DNA from: Minisyncoccota bacterium
GTDB taxonomy: Bacteria; Patescibacteriota; Minisyncoccia; Phycocordibacterales; UBA5272
Length of the DNA: 54,340 bases
NCBI GenBank assembly: GCA_018062965.1
Contig: JAGORG010000002.1
Coordinates: forward strand, 65,860-120,199
Reading direction: 5' to 3'
How positions within the stretch are numbered: position 1 is the first letter of the stretch; the number at the start of each line of letters is the position of its first letter. This document shows, one piece after another, positions 105 to 7,340 of the stretch. Under the pieces are notes generated by a model. That model made no database searches. It saw only the letters and a list, made by a program, of their open reading frames with translations, and was not told the origin of the DNA. The position numbers and the translations under genes were made by a program.

Positions 105-2618
105 TTATTTCTTTTCAGCCATCAACTTCTGATGCTCCTCAGTATTGAGTTCGCCACATTTCTTCCACTTCTTTCCGCTTCCACATGGACACGTATCGTT
201 GCGTCCAATTTTACTAGTATCTAGAGAACCTTGTACTGCAACATGACTCTGATTTGCCTGCTGAGCTGCGATAACACTGTCGATGTTTTCGATAAAGAGC
301 GATAGATCGTGTATCATAGTACCTTCCATACTCTTGAACATACGAAGTCCTTCTTTTTTGTATTCAACAAGTGGATCACGCTGACCGTATGCACGGAGAT
401 TCACACTGTTACGCATATGCTCCATCTGATCCAAATGATCCATCCATAGCATGTCGATAACTTGTAGTGTCATAGCAGATACAATCGCACGAAATGCTTC
501 TTCGCTATACTTTTCTTTCTTTTCTTTGATGAGATCGGCGAGTTCTGGTTTGACAGCAATCAAGCTATCCATGAGTTCGTTGAAATATGCTTCGTCTTTA
601 AACAAAATCTTGCGACGCTTTTCATAAATACTCTTTCGCTGATGGTTAAGCACATCGTCATACTGAAGTGTGTGCTTGCGCGCATCAAAGTGGAATCCTT
701 CGATTTTTTCCTGTGCACCTTCGAGTGCTTTTGATACAAGCTTTGAGTCGATAGCTTCGTCTTCTGGAATACCAAAACGTCCCATCATTGACTTGATACT
801 ATTTGATCCGAACACACGCATCAAATCATCTTCAAGTGATACATAAAACTGCGTCTCTCCAACATCCCCCTGACGCCCTGATCGTCCACGCAACTGATTG
901 TCGATACGACGAGCTTCGTGGCGTTCTGTACCGATAACAAAGAGACCGCCGGCTGCGAGCACTGCTTCTTTTTCTGCCTCTGTTGCAAGAGGACCACCCA
1001 ATTTGATATCCACTCCACGACCCGCCATGTTGGTAGCGATAGTCACAGCACCAGGTTTACCTGCTTCTGCGATGATTTCACCTTCTTTTTCGTGATTCTT
1101 TGCGTTCAAAACAGCATGTGTAATACCTTCACGTTCAAGATACTTTGAAAGGACTTCGTTCTTTTCGATAGAAATAGTACCAATGAGAACTGGTTGACCC
1201 TTTTCGTTGAGTTCTTTTATCTTCTTGGTAAGGGCTTTCCACTTTCCTTTTTCTGTCTGGAAAATCTGATCGTTGTGGTCGAGACGACGAATCTGATTGT
1301 GTGTAGGAACTGGTGTAACTACAAGACCGTATACTTTATAAAATTCTTCTTTTGACGTTTCTGCGGTTCCTGTCATCCCTCCGAGCTTTTCATAAAAACG
1401 GAAGTAGTTTTGGAATGTGATAGATGCAAGTGTACGAGACTCCTGTTCGATCTTTACCCCTTCTTTTGCTTCAACTGCTTGGTGAAGCCCATCTGACCAA
1501 CGACGTCCTGGCTGCATACGCCCCGTGAATTCATCAACGATGATGACTTCACCATCGCGCACTACGTATTCTCGTTCTTGCAAAAAGAGTGCCTTTGCTC
1601 GCACGGCAGTTTCGAGGTGGTGCACTTGCTGCATACCAGCTACTGAATAGATGTTTGAAACACCGAGGAGTTCTTCTGCACGACTGATACCTTCTTCAGT
1701 GAGACCGATAGCTCGCTGCTTTTCATCTACTGTGTAGTGCTCACCTTCGTTTAGTTTGCTCGCAACAGCAGCAAATGTTTTATACATCTCACTCGACTCC
1801 TGAGCAGGAGAAGAAATAATGAGCGGTGTACGAGATTCATCGATCAAAATAGAGTCGATTTCGTCGACGATTGCATAGTGGTGCCCACGCTGCACAAGAG
1901 CATCCGGTGAATAGCCGATATTGTCACGAAGGTAGTCAAAACCAAACTCGTTGTTTGTACCGTAGGTGATATCTGCCTTGTAGGCCTCTTGGCGAGTTGT
2001 AGATTTGAGGAAATCATATACAACTTTGTATGATCCAACATCATCACGTTCGCGATCCTCTTCTGCTTGCACCTTTGCAGAAGCATCATACATATATGAG
2101 CTCTGGTGATTGATAACAGATACTGTTAGACCGAGCGCATCATATACCTGCCCCATCCATACCGCGTCACGACGAGAGAGATAGTCGTTTACTGTTACGA
2201 TGTGCACACCACGCCCACTGAGCGCATTTAGATACGCAGGAAGTGTAGCCACGAGTGTCTTTCCTTCTCCTGTACGCATTTCTGCAATATGCCCACGATG
2301 CAACAGCATACCTCCGATAACCTGCACACGGTAGTGCATCATACGAAGCGTACGGCGAGCAGATTCTCGAACGAGCGCAAACGCATGTGGAAGCACCGCA
2401 TCGAGTACTTTCTTTTCTGTTTGTTTGAGAGCTTCTCCAGTTAGTCCTTCGAGATCTTTTTGTACCTGAGCCTTGAGTGCAAGACTTCGCTCTTTGAGCG
2501 CTTCATCGCTTAGGGTTTTAAGTTCTTCTTCAAACAAAAACACCTGATCTGCAACAGGTTGTAGCTTTTTGACGAGAGATTCCGCCTCAGACGGAAAAAT
2601 CTTGGAAAGTAGTGACAT
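105..2618 (-). CDS. secA: preprotein translocase ATPase SecA
   Basis: This is the motor ATPase that pushes unfolded preproteins through SecYEG at the inner face of the membrane. The protein is about 837 residues, normal for a compact SecA. Visible landmarks are the Walker A run MRTGEGKTLVATLPAYL, the DEAD-like IVDEIDSILIDE, the motif-VI-like QLRGRSGRQGD, and a C-terminal SEC-C zinc tail CPCGSGKKWKKCG. In this tail the fourth zinc ligand (normally His or Cys after the last Cys) is Gly. I start at the ATG at 2618 rather than an in-frame TTG nine bases upstream, because a TGATATAAT extended -10 ends right before it, leaving almost no leader. Family and function are certain. Confidence 0.97.
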   Translation of the reverse strand: MSLLSKIFPSEAESLVKKLQPVADQVFLFEEELKTLSDEALKERSLALKAQVQKDLEGLTGEALKQTEKKVLDAVLPHAFALVRESARRTLRMMHYRVQVIGGMLLHRGHIAEMRTGEGKTLVATLPAYLNALSGRGVHIVTVNDYLSRRDAVWMGQVYDALGLTVSVINHQSSYMYDASAKVQAEEDRERDDVGSYKVVYDFLKSTTRQEAYKADITYGTNNEFGFDYLRDNIGYSPDALVQRGHHYAIVDEIDSILIDESRTPLIISSPAQESSEMYKTFAAVASKLNEGEHYTVDEKQRAIGLTEEGISRAEELLGVSNIYSVAGMQQVHHLETAVRAKALFLQEREYVVRDGEVIIVDEFTGRMQPGRRWSDGLHQAVEAKEGVKIEQESRTLASITFQNYFRFYEKLGGMTGTAETSKEEFYKVYGLVVTPVPTHNQIRRLDHNDQIFQTEKGKWKALTKKIKELNEKGQPVLIGTISIEKNEVLSKYLEREGITHAVLNAKNHEKEGEIIAEAGKPGAVTIATNMAGRGVDIKLGGPLATEAEKEAVLAAGGLFVIGTERHEARRIDNQLRGRSGRQGDVGETQFYVSLEDDLMRVFGSNSIKSMMGRFGIPEDEAIDSKLVSKALEGAQEKIEGFHFDARKHTLQYDDVLNHQRKSIYEKRRKILFKDEAYFNELMDSLIAVKPELADLIKEKKEKYSEEAFRAIVSAMTLQVIDMLWMDHLDQMEHMRNSVNLRAYGQRDPLVEYKKEGLRMFKSMEGTMIHDLSLFIENIDSVIAAQQANQSHVAVQGSLDTSKIGRNDTCPCGSGKKWKKCGELNTEEHQKLMAEKK

Positions 2619-2939: not shown

Positions 2940-3911
2940 CTAGTTGTTCACACTCTCCCAATAGGAAACATTTGCCATGTGCATCTGCAAAACCTCGTCA
3001 TGCTCACTCATTTTTTCACCTCTCTTTGCTGTGGCCCACGCTATCCATACAAGGTCAGAAACGGCTCGTTCATATGCTCTAGCAGCGTATAAAGTATCCA
3101 TGTGAGGAATAGTTACCCGTTGTTTCCAAAGCTCTTGAACCTTGTTACGAAACTTTTCCTTTTCCATTCCAAAAATAGAGGCAAATCGCTCACCAAATAA
3201 TACAACCATAAACATAGGGTCACCAAGACTTACTTTCTGCCAATCGATAAATACAGCTTTATCTTCTGATGTTTGAAAAATAATATTCCCTGGATGTACG
3301 TCATTATAGATAAATGTTTGTGGAATATCTTTAAGGAGGGCATCATTTTTGATGAGGATAATCTTTGCCGTTTCAGCTATTGAATCTAGCCTTTCAGCCA
3401 GCACTGGAGAGACATTTCGTACAACATCTATTCTCTCTTTCCATACAGGAAAACTGACTTCATAACTTGGGTAACGAAACACAAATGAAAAATCATTCTC
3501 TGTTATTGAAACTGAACTCACCTTGCCCAGTAACTCAAGACACACTGAAATGTATTCCTCTGGAAATACACGCGAAGATGCGACATCGCCTTCTACATAA
3601 CTCTCTAGTAGTACCGGCTTACCAAAAATATCCGTATCAAATGCAATAGCACGCGGTGCAACGTCGTATTCTTTAAGTAACTGCAATATCTTGTACTCAG
3701 ATTCCAGATGTGTATGATTAAGCGCACCGGATTCCTTAACTATACGAAGCACATATTTTCCTATATCGGCTTCTATAAGGTAATTATCGTGACTACTACT
3801 TCCACCACCATCTAAAAGACTTACATGTCTTAGCACTCCTAGGTTCTCTTGGACAAGTAATGCCGCAATAGATTCATTAAGAGTATTTCCAGTAAGTGTT
3901 ATGTTTTCCAT
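2940..3911 (-). CDS. APH/choline-kinase-family phosphotransferase
   Basis: This 323-residue cytoplasmic protein has the aminoglycoside phosphotransferase fold. A glycine-rich loop (LLDGGGSSSHDNYLIEA) and the ATP-lysine strand KYVLRIVK form the N lobe. The Brenner-type catalytic loop reads YNDVHPGNIIF and is followed by the metal-binding FIDWQKVSLGDP. The usual HGD of the catalytic loop is YND, keeping the Asp-x-x-x-x-Asn spacing. Likely substrates are a small hydroxylated metabolite (choline, sugar, homoserine or nucleoside); the sequence does not decide, and a drug-resistance role should not be assumed. A TATACT box lies a few bases before the ATG, so the mRNA is near-leaderless. Confidence 0.75.
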   Translation of the reverse strand: MENITLTGNTLNESIAALLVQENLGVLRHVSLLDGGGSSSHDNYLIEADIGKYVLRIVKESGALNHTHLESEYKILQLLKEYDVAPRAIAFDTDIFGKPVLLESYVEGDVASSRVFPEEYISVCLELLGKVSSVSITENDFSFVFRYPSYEVSFPVWKERIDVVRNVSPVLAERLDSIAETAKIILIKNDALLKDIPQTFIYNDVHPGNIIFQTSEDKAVFIDWQKVSLGDPMFMVVLFGERFASIFGMEKEKFRNKVQELWKQRVTIPHMDTLYAARAYERAVSDLVWIAWATAKRGEKMSEHDEVLQMHMANVSYWESVNN

Positions 3912-3936
3912 CTAGTAAGTATACAACCCTACAATA

Positions 3937-4085
3937 TTTTATTCTAAAACTGCTTCAGGTACGCGAAGCTTAGAGATTTTATGAGGAAGACGTAGCTATA
4001 TCTACGATGACCGAGTAAAATTTCGTAGCTGAATCAACAGATTCATATCTTGGATAAAAAGTAGATGAAGCAGTTTTAGAATAAA
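3937..4085. repeat. 149-bp element bounded by 21-bp perfect inverted repeats
   Basis: Positions 3937-3957 are the exact reverse complement of 4065-4085. The 107-base interior holds further self-complementary segments, with a central GTAG-CTATAT-CTAC-like palindrome flanked by GAGGAAGAC and GACCGAG. It has no ORF and no T-run, and a separate terminator follows at 4092-4121, so it is not simply a terminator. The intergenic element at 49027-49149 has the same plan. A REP/MITE-like dispersed hairpin is my best guess. Confidence 0.6.
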
Positions 4086-4091
4086 AAAAAC

Positions 4092-4121
4092 AAAAAACAT
4101 CCGTGGGAGCGGATGTTTTTT
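4092..4121. terminator. terminator of the Lys-repeat protein gene
   Basis: AAAAAACATCCG and its reverse complement flank a 6-base loop. On the minus strand the hairpin is followed by a long T-rich tract. It sits just after the stop codon of the gene at 4140-4250. Confidence 0.85.
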
Positions 4122-4139
4122 GAGAATCGCAAGCGATGA

Positions 4140-4250
4140 CTATGCACGCTTTGCTGACTTCTTCTTTGCAACTTTCTTAGTAGCCTTCTTTGCAGTCTTC
4201 TTAACTGCCTTCTTTGCTACTTTCTTTGCTGCTTTCTTCTTTGCTGCCAT
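4140..4250 (-). CDS. histone H1-tail-like lysine/alanine-repeat protein (36 residues)
   Basis: The ATG at 4250 opens a 36-codon frame that is almost entirely an (A/V/T)-(A/V/T)-K-K tetrapeptide repeat, beginning MAAKKKAAKKVAKKAVKK and ending KSAKRA. About half the residues are Lys or Arg and none are acidic or aromatic, so a nucleic-acid-binding, intrinsically disordered polypeptide is expected. It resembles the C-terminal tails of eukaryotic H1 and of chlamydial Hc1/Hc2, and AlgP/HU-tail repeats. The next gene upstream on the same strand is a SET-domain lysine methyltransferase, and such a tail is a plausible substrate (inference). A TAAAAT box six bases before the ATG suggests a leaderless mRNA. 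A well-formed terminator follows. Confidence 0.85.
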   Translation of the reverse strand: MAAKKKAAKKVAKKAVKKTAKKATKKVAKKKSAKRA

Positions 4251-4389
4251 AGTATTATTTTAGGTTATGCAAAATGCTTAGAGAGTGCGTGTAATATTTT
4301 GATCGCGACCACGATCATCTCTCTACTACTAAGTATGTCACTCATACATATACATACAAGCGAAATGAAATATATTTCTGTGGATAACT

Positions 4390-4425
4390 CACATGAAAAT
4401 ATTTTGTATAAAATATTTTCATGTG
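4390..4425. repeat. 16-bp perfect inverted repeat with a 4-base loop
   Basis: CACATGAAAATATTTT, loop GTAT, then its exact reverse complement. No T-run follows on either strand, so this is not an ordinary terminator. It lies upstream of the Lys-repeat protein gene on the minus strand and may be an operator, a cruciform or an RNA structure. Confidence 0.6.
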
Positions 4426-4507
4426 CATCACTTTTGCATATGCGAAGCTGTTGCAAAAACAGCAAAAATAATGACATACAAACAACGTATACAGCACAAG
4501 CTAAAAA

Positions 4508-4540
4508 AAGAAATACGATGCGTAATGCATCGTATTTCTT
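4508..4540. terminator. terminator of the SET-domain gene
   Basis: AAGAAATACGATGC and its reverse complement flank GTAAT; on the minus strand a run of Ts follows. It is located about 33 bases after the SET gene stop. Confidence 0.8.
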
Positions 4541-4572
4541 GTATATTTATTTATATTCTTTTTCTCCACTAA

Positions 4573-5133
4573 CTACTTTTCTACTACCGCAGGTGCTGCT
4601 GCTCCATAACTGTGTTTTTTTGCTACACATCGACATCCATAAGGTGCAATGTACTCTTTTACAAATTCTTCACCGTAGTCATATACAATCTCTTCACCTT
4701 CTTTGATATTCTTTATCGCACTAATAAACACTCTTCCTTTCTTGATATCGCTCTCAGCGTTTGCTGCTTCTTCGCATGCATGATTGCAATAGCGTGCGAT
4801 GTTCCATCTTACTTGTCCGTTGATAGTTTTGTTGCGATTAACTTCAAAGAGATACTGATTGGTTGTAATCTTCTCTGCTTCTTCCTTATTCAAAATTTCA
4901 CCAATGTATTCGATAATCATTTCCCCTTTCTTGATATCCTCTCCTGCAAAGAGTCCAAGCCCTGCGAGACCTCGTTTTACCTTGACCAGCTTAAAGTGAT
5001 GGTCTGGGAGAGATTTTGTATTTGGAGAAACCTTTGCACCGAGCGCCGCAACCTTCTTCGAACCCTTCTTCAAAACCTTTGACTGTTTATCTAGTTTTTT
5101 TACTGTAGTTTTCTTTTCTTTCTGTGTAGACAT
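4573..5133 (-). CDS. SET-domain protein lysine methyltransferase
   Basis: The 186-residue protein transfers a methyl group from S-adenosylmethionine to lysine side chains. A Lys-rich N-terminal tail (about 40 residues) precedes the SET core: LAGLGLFAGEDIKKGEMIIEY (SET-I), RYCNHACEEAAN (the SAM/knot motif, normally NHSC), and GEEIVYDYGEEF with the catalytic Tyr. A post-SET-like CRC follows near the C terminus. SET proteins are best known as eukaryotic histone methyltransferases; chlamydiae encode one reported to act on their histone-like proteins. The gene lies upstream of and co-directional with the 36-residue lysine-repeat protein, though a terminator separates them. I start at 5133 because the TATATA box at about 5152-5157 overlaps the region just before the earlier ATG at 5148. 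Confidence 0.9.
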   Translation of the reverse strand: MSTQKEKKTTVKKLDKQSKVLKKGSKKVAALGAKVSPNTKSLPDHHFKLVKVKRGLAGLGLFAGEDIKKGEMIIEYIGEILNKEEAEKITTNQYLFEVNRNKTINGQVRWNIARYCNHACEEAANAESDIKKGRVFISAIKNIKEGEEIVYDYGEEFVKEYIAPYGCRCVAKKHSYGAAAPAVVEK

Positions 5134-5198
5134 AATGTACCGAAGCATACTATATATAGATAGAGTCGAGCAAGAAAAAATGGTAGGATACTGTATAT

Positions 5199-7340
5199 AT
5201 GAAACACGTCCCTCCGCAACTTACTAAACCATTTAATGCAGAAGCCGTAGAAGCATCTCTCTACGAGATGTGGGAGAAAAGTGGATACTTTAATCCAGAT
5301 AATCTCACATCTGCAACAAAAGACCCGTATACGATAACTCTCCCTCCACCAAACGTCACTGGGACACTTCACACTGGGCACGCAATCATGCTTGCCATCC
5401 AAGATACCCTCATACGATTCAAGCGCATGCAAGGACATAAAGCACTTTGGCTTCCAGGGACAGACCACGCAGCGATTGCTACACAATCTGTTGTAGAAAA
5501 GAAGCTCCTCAAAGAACAAGGTAAATCTCGTCACGATCTCGGACGAGAAGAATTCTTGAAGCAGGTAAACGAATTCGCACTCGACAGTCAATCAACTATC
5601 CTCTCGCAGTGCCGTTCAATGGGAGCATCTCTTGATTGGTCACGTCTTGCTTTTACAATAGACGATAAGCGCAATCTGGCAGTTCGTACAATGTTCACAA
5701 AAATGTACAACGATGGACTCATCTATCGTGGACTACGCATCGTAAACTGGGACCCAAAAGGTCAGACTACTATTTCAGATGACGAAACAGTAGCTGAGGA
5801 ACGCAAAGGTGTTTTGTATACATTTAAATACAGTGCAGACTTCCCTATCGCGATTTCTTCAACACGCCCAGAAACAAAAGTAGGCGACGTAGCAGTTGCG
5901 GTGCACCCTGATGATGAACGATACAAGGAGTATGTCGGCAAAGAATACACTATGACATTTGCTGGATGCCCTATCACTATCAAAGTGGTCGCAGATGCAG
6001 CGGTTGAAAAAGACTTTGGTACTGGAGCACTCGGCGTAACCCCAGCTCACAGCCAGATCGACTGGGAAATAAAAGAACGGCACGATCTCCCTGTGCGACA
6101 GGTTATCAATGAATACGCAAAGATGACAGGACTCGCAAACGAAGAGCTCAACGGCAAAAAAGTCACTGAAGCTCGTGAATACGTAGTGAATTGGCTTCGT
6201 GAAAATAATCTACTCATAAGCGAAGAAGAGGTAACTCAAAATATCCCAACAGCAGAACGCACAGGAGGTGTCATCGAACCATTACCAAAACTACAGTGGT
6301 GGATTGCTGTTAATAAACCATTCACCCACTTTGGAAAAGAAACAACCCTTAAAGCACTCATGCGTGAAGCTGTAGAGAGTAAAGCGACAGCTATCATCCC
6401 TGATAGGTTTGAAAAGATATATTTTCATTGGATAGAAAACTTGCGTGACTGGTGTATCTCTCGCCAAATCTGGTACGGACATCGTATACCTGTATGGTAT
6501 AGAGGTTCTGAAACCTATTGCGGCGTTACTGCACCAGAAGGTGACGGATGGGCACAAGACGAAGACACACTCGATACATGGTTCTCATCAGGTATGTGGA
6601 CATTCTCTACACTTGGTTGGCCAGAACAAACACCTGATCTACAGACATATCACCCAACAAGCCTTCTTGAGACAGGACATGACATCCTCTTCTTTTGGGT
6701 TGCGCGCATGATTTTGTTTTCAACATACGCACTAAACGAAGTGCCATTTAAACACACCTACCTGCACGGTCTCATACGCGATACACAAGGACGCAAGATG
6801 AGTAAGTCCCTTGGAAATGTTCTTGACCCACGAGACTTGTCTGTGAAATATGGTACGGACGCTTTGCGTATGGCGTTACTAGTGGGAAACGGTCCGGGAA
6901 ACGATTTGAAACTAGGGGAAGATAAAATAAAAGCGTACAAGCTTTTCTCAAACAAGATTTGGAACGCAACTCGATTTGTTCTCGAAAAAACAACTGATAG
7001 TGAAGCTTCTGTTCCGTTTACCCAGGAAGACCAAGCACTCTATGACGCATGGCTCACAGTAAAAGCTGATATCACATCTGATCTTGAAAACTATCGCCTA
7101 CATCTTGCTTCAGAAAAGATGTACGACTACTTCTGGAAAACGTTTTGTGACCAAATAATCGAGACACACAAAGTACGCATCGCAGATAACAACAACAAGG
7201 CAAGTGCTCAGACGCTATTGCTCACCCTTCTTCGTGAACAAATCATTGTATTGCATCCATTCATGCCATTCCTCACAGAAGAAATCTGGAAGTATATTAA
7301 AAAAGAAGATGACAGCTTGCTCATAGTTACCGCGTGGTAA
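5199..7340 (+). CDS. valS: valyl-tRNA synthetase
   Basis: The class I synthetase charges tRNA-Val. The HIGH-type motif appears as PPPNVTGTLHTGHA and the KMSKS loop as GRKMSKSLGN; a CP1 editing domain lies between them (STRPETKVGDVAVAVHPDD). The protein is 713 residues, well short of the usual 850-950: the C-terminal tRNA-binding coiled coil is absent, and it ends soon after the anticodon-binding helical domain. A GATACT box lies seven bases before the ATG, so the mRNA is probably leaderless. Divergent from the SET gene, with only about 65 bases between the starts. Confidence 0.96.
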   Translation: MKHVPPQLTKPFNAEAVEASLYEMWEKSGYFNPDNLTSATKDPYTITLPPPNVTGTLHTGHAIMLAIQDTLIRFKRMQGHKALWLPGTDHAAIATQSVVEKKLLKEQGKSRHDLGREEFLKQVNEFALDSQSTILSQCRSMGASLDWSRLAFTIDDKRNLAVRTMFTKMYNDGLIYRGLRIVNWDPKGQTTISDDETVAEERKGVLYTFKYSADFPIAISSTRPETKVGDVAVAVHPDDERYKEYVGKEYTMTFAGCPITIKVVADAAVEKDFGTGALGVTPAHSQIDWEIKERHDLPVRQVINEYAKMTGLANEELNGKKVTEAREYVVNWLRENNLLISEEEVTQNIPTAERTGGVIEPLPKLQWWIAVNKPFTHFGKETTLKALMREAVESKATAIIPDRFEKIYFHWIENLRDWCISRQIWYGHRIPVWYRGSETYCGVTAPEGDGWAQDEDTLDTWFSSGMWTFSTLGWPEQTPDLQTYHPTSLLETGHDILFFWVARMILFSTYALNEVPFKHTYLHGLIRDTQGRKMSKSLGNVLDPRDLSVKYGTDALRMALLVGNGPGNDLKLGEDKIKAYKLFSNKIWNATRFVLEKTTDSEASVPFTQEDQALYDAWLTVKADITSDLENYRLHLASEKMYDYFWKTFCDQIIETHKVRIADNNNKASAQTLLLTLLREQIIVLHPFMPFLTEEIWKYIKKEDDSLLIVTAW

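Follow-up and report, generated by a model that had tools for sequence, protein, structure and literature searches.

A lysine-rich mini-gene with a DnaA-box promoter, its secA linkage and its SET-domain neighbour in an order of Paceibacteria

What is the function of a gene that encodes almost nothing but lysine and alanine and lies next to a SET-domain methyltransferase gene in a bacterium? The question arises from a 54,340-nucleotide stretch of a Nomurabacteria-type genome (contig JAGORG010000002.1, positions 65,860 to 120,199; hereafter the window). A preliminary description, made from the letters of this DNA, had joined the two genes into a minimal chromatin-tail/methylase pair that could adjust DNA compaction. 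Here we follow both genes through the genus, the family and the order. The survey corrects the attractive but poorly founded idea of a SET-histone pair, and it adds a structured leader for which the site examined has no Rfam match. The reading which we prefer, at a probability of about 60%, is that the mini-gene is a monocistronic, probably DnaA-controlled gene whose product is a polycation resembling a histone-H1 tail. This product most likely compacts nucleic acid, and its synthesis would be coupled to DnaA. The features of the locus are collected in Table 1.

Table 1. Features of the SET/mini-gene/secA locus, in window coordinates
Feature	Position	Strand	Basis or remark
secA	105..2618	-	widespread downstream neighbour of the mini-gene; displaced here by an inserted gene
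APH-family phosphotransferase gene	2940..3911	-	PF01636, 6.9e-18; between mini-gene and secA
Intrinsic terminator of the mini-gene	4091..4122	-	terminator prediction
Lys/Ala-rich mini-protein gene, 36 aa	4140..4250	-	ORF; counterparts across genus, family and order; third-position-biased substitutions
Structured 5′ leader	4279..4325	-	outer stem UAGAGAG/CUCUCUA around a hairpin with GGTCG (4310-4306)
-10 element CATACT	4332..4337	-	alignment; genus form
-35 element TTGTAT	4354..4359	-	alignment across family and order
Perfect DnaA box TTATCCACA	4379..4387	-	starts 50 nt before the -10 hexamer (start to start)
Intrinsic terminator of the SET gene	4508..4540	-	hairpin, terminator-like on both strands
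SET-domain protein lysine methyltransferase gene	4573..5133	-	186 aa; Lys-rich disordered N-terminal tail; post-SET CxC...H
valS	5199..7340	+	divergent neighbour of SET in 19/20 family loci

The SET gene and its lysine-rich neighbour

Judged by profile, motifs and predicted structure, the SET gene appears to encode a genuine eukaryote-like protein lysine methyltransferase. The Pfam family PF00856 matches the protein over the whole domain (3e-23, profile positions 1-105 of 105). The NHAC knot and the YDYG motif of the preliminary description are indeed present, as is GLGLFA. Across 21 aligned SET sequences G60, L61, N117, H118, C120, D152, Y153, G154, C167 and C169 are invariant, and the post-SET CxC...H is found in most of the genus. 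In the AlphaFold model the pLDDT of the domain lies mostly between 75 and 96, and fold comparison places this model closest to the SET domains of MLL1 and G9a. Among relatives of the Bradyrhizobium and Rhodopseudomonas type, most SET proteins carry basic C-terminal tails in cis of about 70-170 residues with 29-38% K+R (L106, L111, L112, L114, L115, L118, L120, L125-L128, L130, L131, L133, L135-L140, L143, L144, L146, L147, L152-L154). These tails are possibly a cis substrate or a DNA anchor.

The second gene is the 36-residue lysine-repeat ORF which had been noticed beside SET on the same strand, and it bears signs of coding. Its translation is MAAKKKAAKKVAKKAVKKTAKKATKKVAKKKSAKRA, almost only Lys and Ala. 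Since substitutions among equal-length relatives fall mostly in third codon positions, and every genus member has an ORF of matching composition and start, the 36-mer looks like a coding sequence. Within its own 646 kb genome, KKxxKKxxKK clusters are confined to the 36-mer, besides one poly-A-like match. The literature searched on lysine-rich proteins, nucleoid proteins and DnaA targets of Patescibacteria yielded no description of the mini-gene, which is short enough to be overlooked easily.

Counterparts in other genomes measure 13-106 aa, with a median of 31 aa. Their 3006 residues comprise 44% K, 20% A, 13% R, 9% T, 5% V and 3% P and include no D, E, F, W or Y; these values describe members which were chosen by a composition threshold, from ORFs found with a composition-based detector. 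As length and repeat number vary and composition alone is conserved, homology beyond position and promoter is not demonstrable by alignment. In composition the mini-protein is histone-H1-like (dominated by Lys and Ala, and devoid of acidic and aromatic side chains). It exceeds the cut-off of no Pfam or NCBIfam model, and no model assigns it to the histone-H1-like families (Hc1, Hc2, Burkholderia H1-like, AlgP); one long counterpart reached E 3.7 and 7.8 bits against NF038053, for which the cut-off is 80.

Similar lysine-rich stretches occur within larger proteins. A sigma-70-like factor encoded in many genomes of the order begins with about 40-100 additional Lys-rich residues, whose composition is like that of the mini-protein (L186, L192, L198, L199, L200, L201, L206, L212, L214). 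Furthermore, Gly/Arg-rich CxxC-motif proteins ending in Lys-rich repeat tails are encoded at L187, L203 and L204.

In the window, SET and the mini-gene lie 322 nt apart on the minus strand. Because this interval contains the SET terminator (4540-4508) as well as a separate promoter for the mini-gene, the two genes do not form one operon, and a SET/36-mer operon is ruled out. An intrinsic terminator of its own follows the SET gene in 15 of 20 family loci.

The arrangement itself is conserved at close range. All 15 genomes of the genus have a Lys-rich ORF of 24-39 aa after SET on the same strand, at a distance of 257-474 nt in 14 of them; in G012 it is 911 nt. For the remaining family members the distance is 232 nt in G016, 175 nt in G017, 764 nt in G015 and 2.9 kb in G019; in G018 a contig end splits the locus, and the SET fragment is followed at about 3 kb by a Lys-rich match. 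The gene order common to the family is hsp20-valS-SET-mini-gene-secA. Insertions separate SET from the mini-gene in G012 and G019, and the mini-gene from secA in G000 (APH-family gene), G004, G007, G010, G011 and G013. G016 keeps SET next to the mini-gene though valS no longer adjoins SET. The APH-family gene is absent from the mini-gene/secA interval of the other family loci. Other genus members carry different gene sets in this interval, with heavy-metal P-type-ATPase-like genes in G011, G004 and G007; from the gene content, it looks like an insertion hotspot.

Conserved adjacency, which had been proposed as a check on the pair, thus holds in the genus (15/15) and in nearly all of the family, and it ends there. 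No Lys-rich mini-gene is found around the 71 SET loci that were read in other families and in Alphaproteobacteria, where flanks extended to at most 8 kb; the lysine matches near these SETs come from the tail of the SET itself, from bS20-like ORFs or from comparable basic ORFs (e.g. L090). For 25 further SETs of the order no such Lys-rich neighbour lies within 1.5 kb. Likewise, searching for valS or secA beside SET enzymes elsewhere gave only a lone valS match, about 5 kb off, in L084.

Linkage of the mini-gene to secA across the order

In genomes which lack SET, Lys-rich mini-genes lie directly upstream of secA in 12 of 13 loci examined. Of 197 genomes of the order, 182 yielded a secA gene. 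The DNA upstream of secA was then read in 104 genomes, and in 102 of them, from about 79 families, it was long enough for the survey. A Lys/Arg/Ala mini-gene precedes secA on the same strand in 77 of these 102 loci, in genomes that are mostly metagenome-assembled and phylogenetically non-independent. It is within 310 nt of secA in 74 genomes, and 52 families possess it. SET is absent from 52 of the 77 genomes. Nine of the 102 loci had originally been found through their lysine pattern; excluding them leaves 68 of 93. The loose detector used here has a background of 5.7% per 700-nt strand window, and its chance matches are mostly Arg-type or bS20-like ORFs, unlike the mini-genes.

On these sequence grounds, the mini-protein family spans the order of Paceibacteria that contains the present genome. 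In other orders of the class about one third of secA loci have such an ORF, and in other classes 24 secA loci gave one weak Arg-type match only. The linkage is broken in G123, whose mini-gene is 333 kb away from secA and retains its DnaA box.

Promoter, DnaA box and structured leader

The upstream region of the mini-gene is organised in a recurrent way. In alignments of these regions, the -10 element, which follows TTGT, is GATAAT in most members of the order outside the genus. The window contains one perfect DnaA box only, that of the mini-gene. A perfect forward TTATCCACA occurs within 260 nt upstream of 75 of 95 mini-genes (76 of the order set plus 19 of the family), against 0.23 expected from the genome-wide density, and is missing in the remaining 20. 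When up to one mismatch is allowed, 69 of the 76 mini-genes of the order set have a box; no reversed box is found in this set. The spacing between box and -10 element is 48-51 nt in 73 of the 75 cases and exactly 50 nt in 44, and this near-fixed geometry spans 41 families.

The combination is also predictive. Among the loci examined, a DnaA box with a correctly spaced -10 element is followed by a Lys/Arg-rich ORF in 81 of 85 occurrences. Two sites with this combination, at position 119 of L065 and at position 8388 of L103 (reverse), have no Lys-rich ORF downstream and are possibly further DnaA targets. The 26 secA loci without a mini-gene include a single box, which is reversed. Because mini-gene-less secA loci lack the box and G123 keeps it 333 kb away, the DnaA box belongs to the mini-gene and not to secA. 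A replication origin at this site is ruled out, with neither a cluster of DnaA boxes nor a switch in GC skew.

The dnaA gene (PF08299) is present in seven of eight genomes tested, including that of the window. In G123 no Bac_DnaA_C match was found although the box is kept. G123 (L351) has several TTATCCACA boxes, with one cluster near C1:632515-632826, and possibly represents an odd DnaA or a replication exception. In four of the genomes tested, G021, G026, G038 and G032, TTATCCACA or TTATACACA is found at or just before the start of dnaA.

Downstream of the promoter, transcription is predicted to start at about 4325, followed by a leader which folds at -16.8 kcal/mol in the window (z -1.7). 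In the genus, one pair switches from A-U to G-C on both sides in three of 11 sequences, and pairing is kept in 94% of cells. The covariation is modest, equally high values arising in 11 of 500 shuffles. Leaders outside the family are too varied to align. Taken together, 74 leaders are more structured than their shuffles (mean z -2.26, Wilcoxon p = 1.4e-13). The pentamer GGTCG is found in 64 of the 74, in or beside hairpins, and in 66 of 76 upstream regions of 260 nt, against 4% of mononucleotide shuffles. Within window positions 3800-5400 no Rfam family scores above its gathering threshold. Finally, a terminator follows 87 of 95 mini-genes on the 3′ side, compared with 4 of 285 shuffles.

By its sequence signals, each mini-gene forms a transcription unit of its own, which comprises, in order, a DnaA box that begins some 50 nt ahead of the -10 element, a sigma-70 promoter (TTGT...GATAAT), the leader, the Lys-rich ORF and the terminator. 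A box centred about -59 is in the position for a class-I activator. DnaA may bind the box centred near -59, such that synthesis of the mini-protein would be tied to the level or the activity of DnaA. The structured leader may add post-transcriptional, perhaps autogenous, control.

Function of the mini-protein and comparison with known systems

The polycation encoded by the mini-gene would bind and neutralise or condense nucleic acid, most likely the chromosome. As most of these genomes also encode HU, the mini-protein is not the sole nucleoid protein and would be an additional one. RNA, ribosomes or polyphosphate could equally be its ligand.

Indeed, the strongest alternative, which we nonetheless consider unlikely, takes the mini-protein for a ribosome- or RNA-binding polycation (a ribosome-associated or RNA-chaperone mini-protein) whose DnaA control couples it to growth rate. 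Short basic peptides often bind rRNA, which favours this reading, and the structured leader recalls the autogenous control of RNA-binding proteins. However, nothing past composition is conserved in the mini-protein, neither Pfam, NCBIfam nor Rfam gives a match, and the DnaA box fits a DNA-linked role better than a ribosome or RNA role.

Somewhat less probable is the pair of the preliminary description, a dedicated writer and tail in which SET methylates the 36-mer and thereby tunes DNA compaction. The part of that claim which endures is the juxtaposition, since a SET gene beside an H1-tail-like polycation is conserved throughout the 15 genomes of the genus and in most family members, G016 included. 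Several observations speak for more than juxtaposition: Lys-rich tails in cis are found on related alphaproteobacterial SETs and on some SETs of Paceibacteria; repeat patterns and SET co-occur (30/49 vs 44/148, p = 1.5e-4), an association which may be phylogenetic; and a review lists precedents in which cpnSET methylates Hc1 and Go1-SET methylates MC1-alpha (PMC3980110). The dedication of the pair, in contrast, did not withstand the survey. The two genes have separate promoters and terminators and are separate units, 52 genomes have the mini-gene and lack this SET, and adjacency is absent outside the family. At secA, the mini-gene is found in 25 of 29 genomes with SET and in 52 of 73 others (Fisher p = 0.13). 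Mini-proteins first seemed longer in SET-bearing genomes (p = 0.035), an effect which disappears when one genome per family is counted (p = 0.45). Co-occurrence together with adjacency is thus seen in one family only, and the secA-anchored survey rules out the SET-tail pair as a conserved unit. In this family SET is a protein-lysine methyltransferase gene in its own right, located between valS and the mini-gene, and its enzyme may methylate the mini-protein, a candidate substrate.

We hold it to be similarly improbable that TTATCCACA is bound by an activator other than DnaA, or acts as an upstream promoter element. Such a reading would accommodate G123, which keeps the box without a detectable DnaA C-terminal domain. 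It is opposed by the exact match to the DnaA consensus in a single orientation, and by the fact that in several genomes dnaA itself has this site or one that differs from it by a single base. Least credible is a SecM-like cis regulator, in which slow or stalled translation of the Lys-rich ORF, taken as a leader peptide, would control secA: uORFs for arrest peptides such as SecM do occur before secA (survey PMC10987492), and the mini-gene, like SecM and other Sec-related arrest peptides a short ORF, lies just upstream of secA in 74 loci, but it is a separate, terminated unit instead of a uORF co-transcribed with secA (an intrinsic terminator stands between them in 87 of 95 cases), insertions of up to about 10 kb lie between the two genes in the family and a distance of 333 kb separates them in G123, its product of 13 to 106 aa has a variable sequence without signal sequence or conserved arrest motif, and the DnaA box moves with the mini-gene and not with secA. 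Terminators, insertions and variable sequence rule out such a leader.

Returning to the DnaA-controlled nucleic-acid compactor, a fuller version is conceivable, in which DnaA drives a histone-tail-like polycation that packages the chromosome throughout the order, the leader adds control, and the MLL-like SET methylates the polycation in this family. We regard this version as tentative and the whole of it as rather doubtful. If true, it would be a bacterial counterpart of replication-coupled histone synthesis in ultra-small bacteria. Little is known about nucleoid organisation and cell-cycle control in Patescibacteria, and the mini-gene offers a testable link from replication control to a histone-tail-like protein.

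Each part of the locus has relatives among known systems. The SET protein has the SET plus post-SET fold and the catalytic motifs in common with KMT2/MLL and G9a; unlike these eukaryotic enzymes it is a single-domain protein of 186 aa with a Lys-rich disordered N-terminus. A SET enzyme and a small, putatively DNA-binding protein in one cell are comparable to cpnSET-Hc1 and Go1-SET-MC1alpha (PMC3980110), whereas the pairing described here is an adjacency in one family, read from sequence, and the mini-gene is SET-independent elsewhere. DnaA-regulated promoters, such as that of dnaA itself and those of the Caulobacter DnaA targets, likewise combine a sigma-70 promoter with a DnaA box in a set position; the mini-gene differs from them in that the target is a histone-tail-like polycation and in its near-fixed spacing over 41 families. 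Finally, the chlamydial Hc1/Hc2, AlgP and the Burkholderia H1-like proteins are, like the mini-protein, Lys/Ala-repeat polycations of variable repeat number with presumed nucleoid or polyanion binding, and the size variation of Hc2 arises by Lys-rich pentamers (PMC2848022). In contrast to these proteins, the mini-protein is much shorter (median 31 aa) and reaches the cut-off of no Pfam or NCBIfam model, and its gene has a DnaA-box promoter of its own and secA as neighbour.
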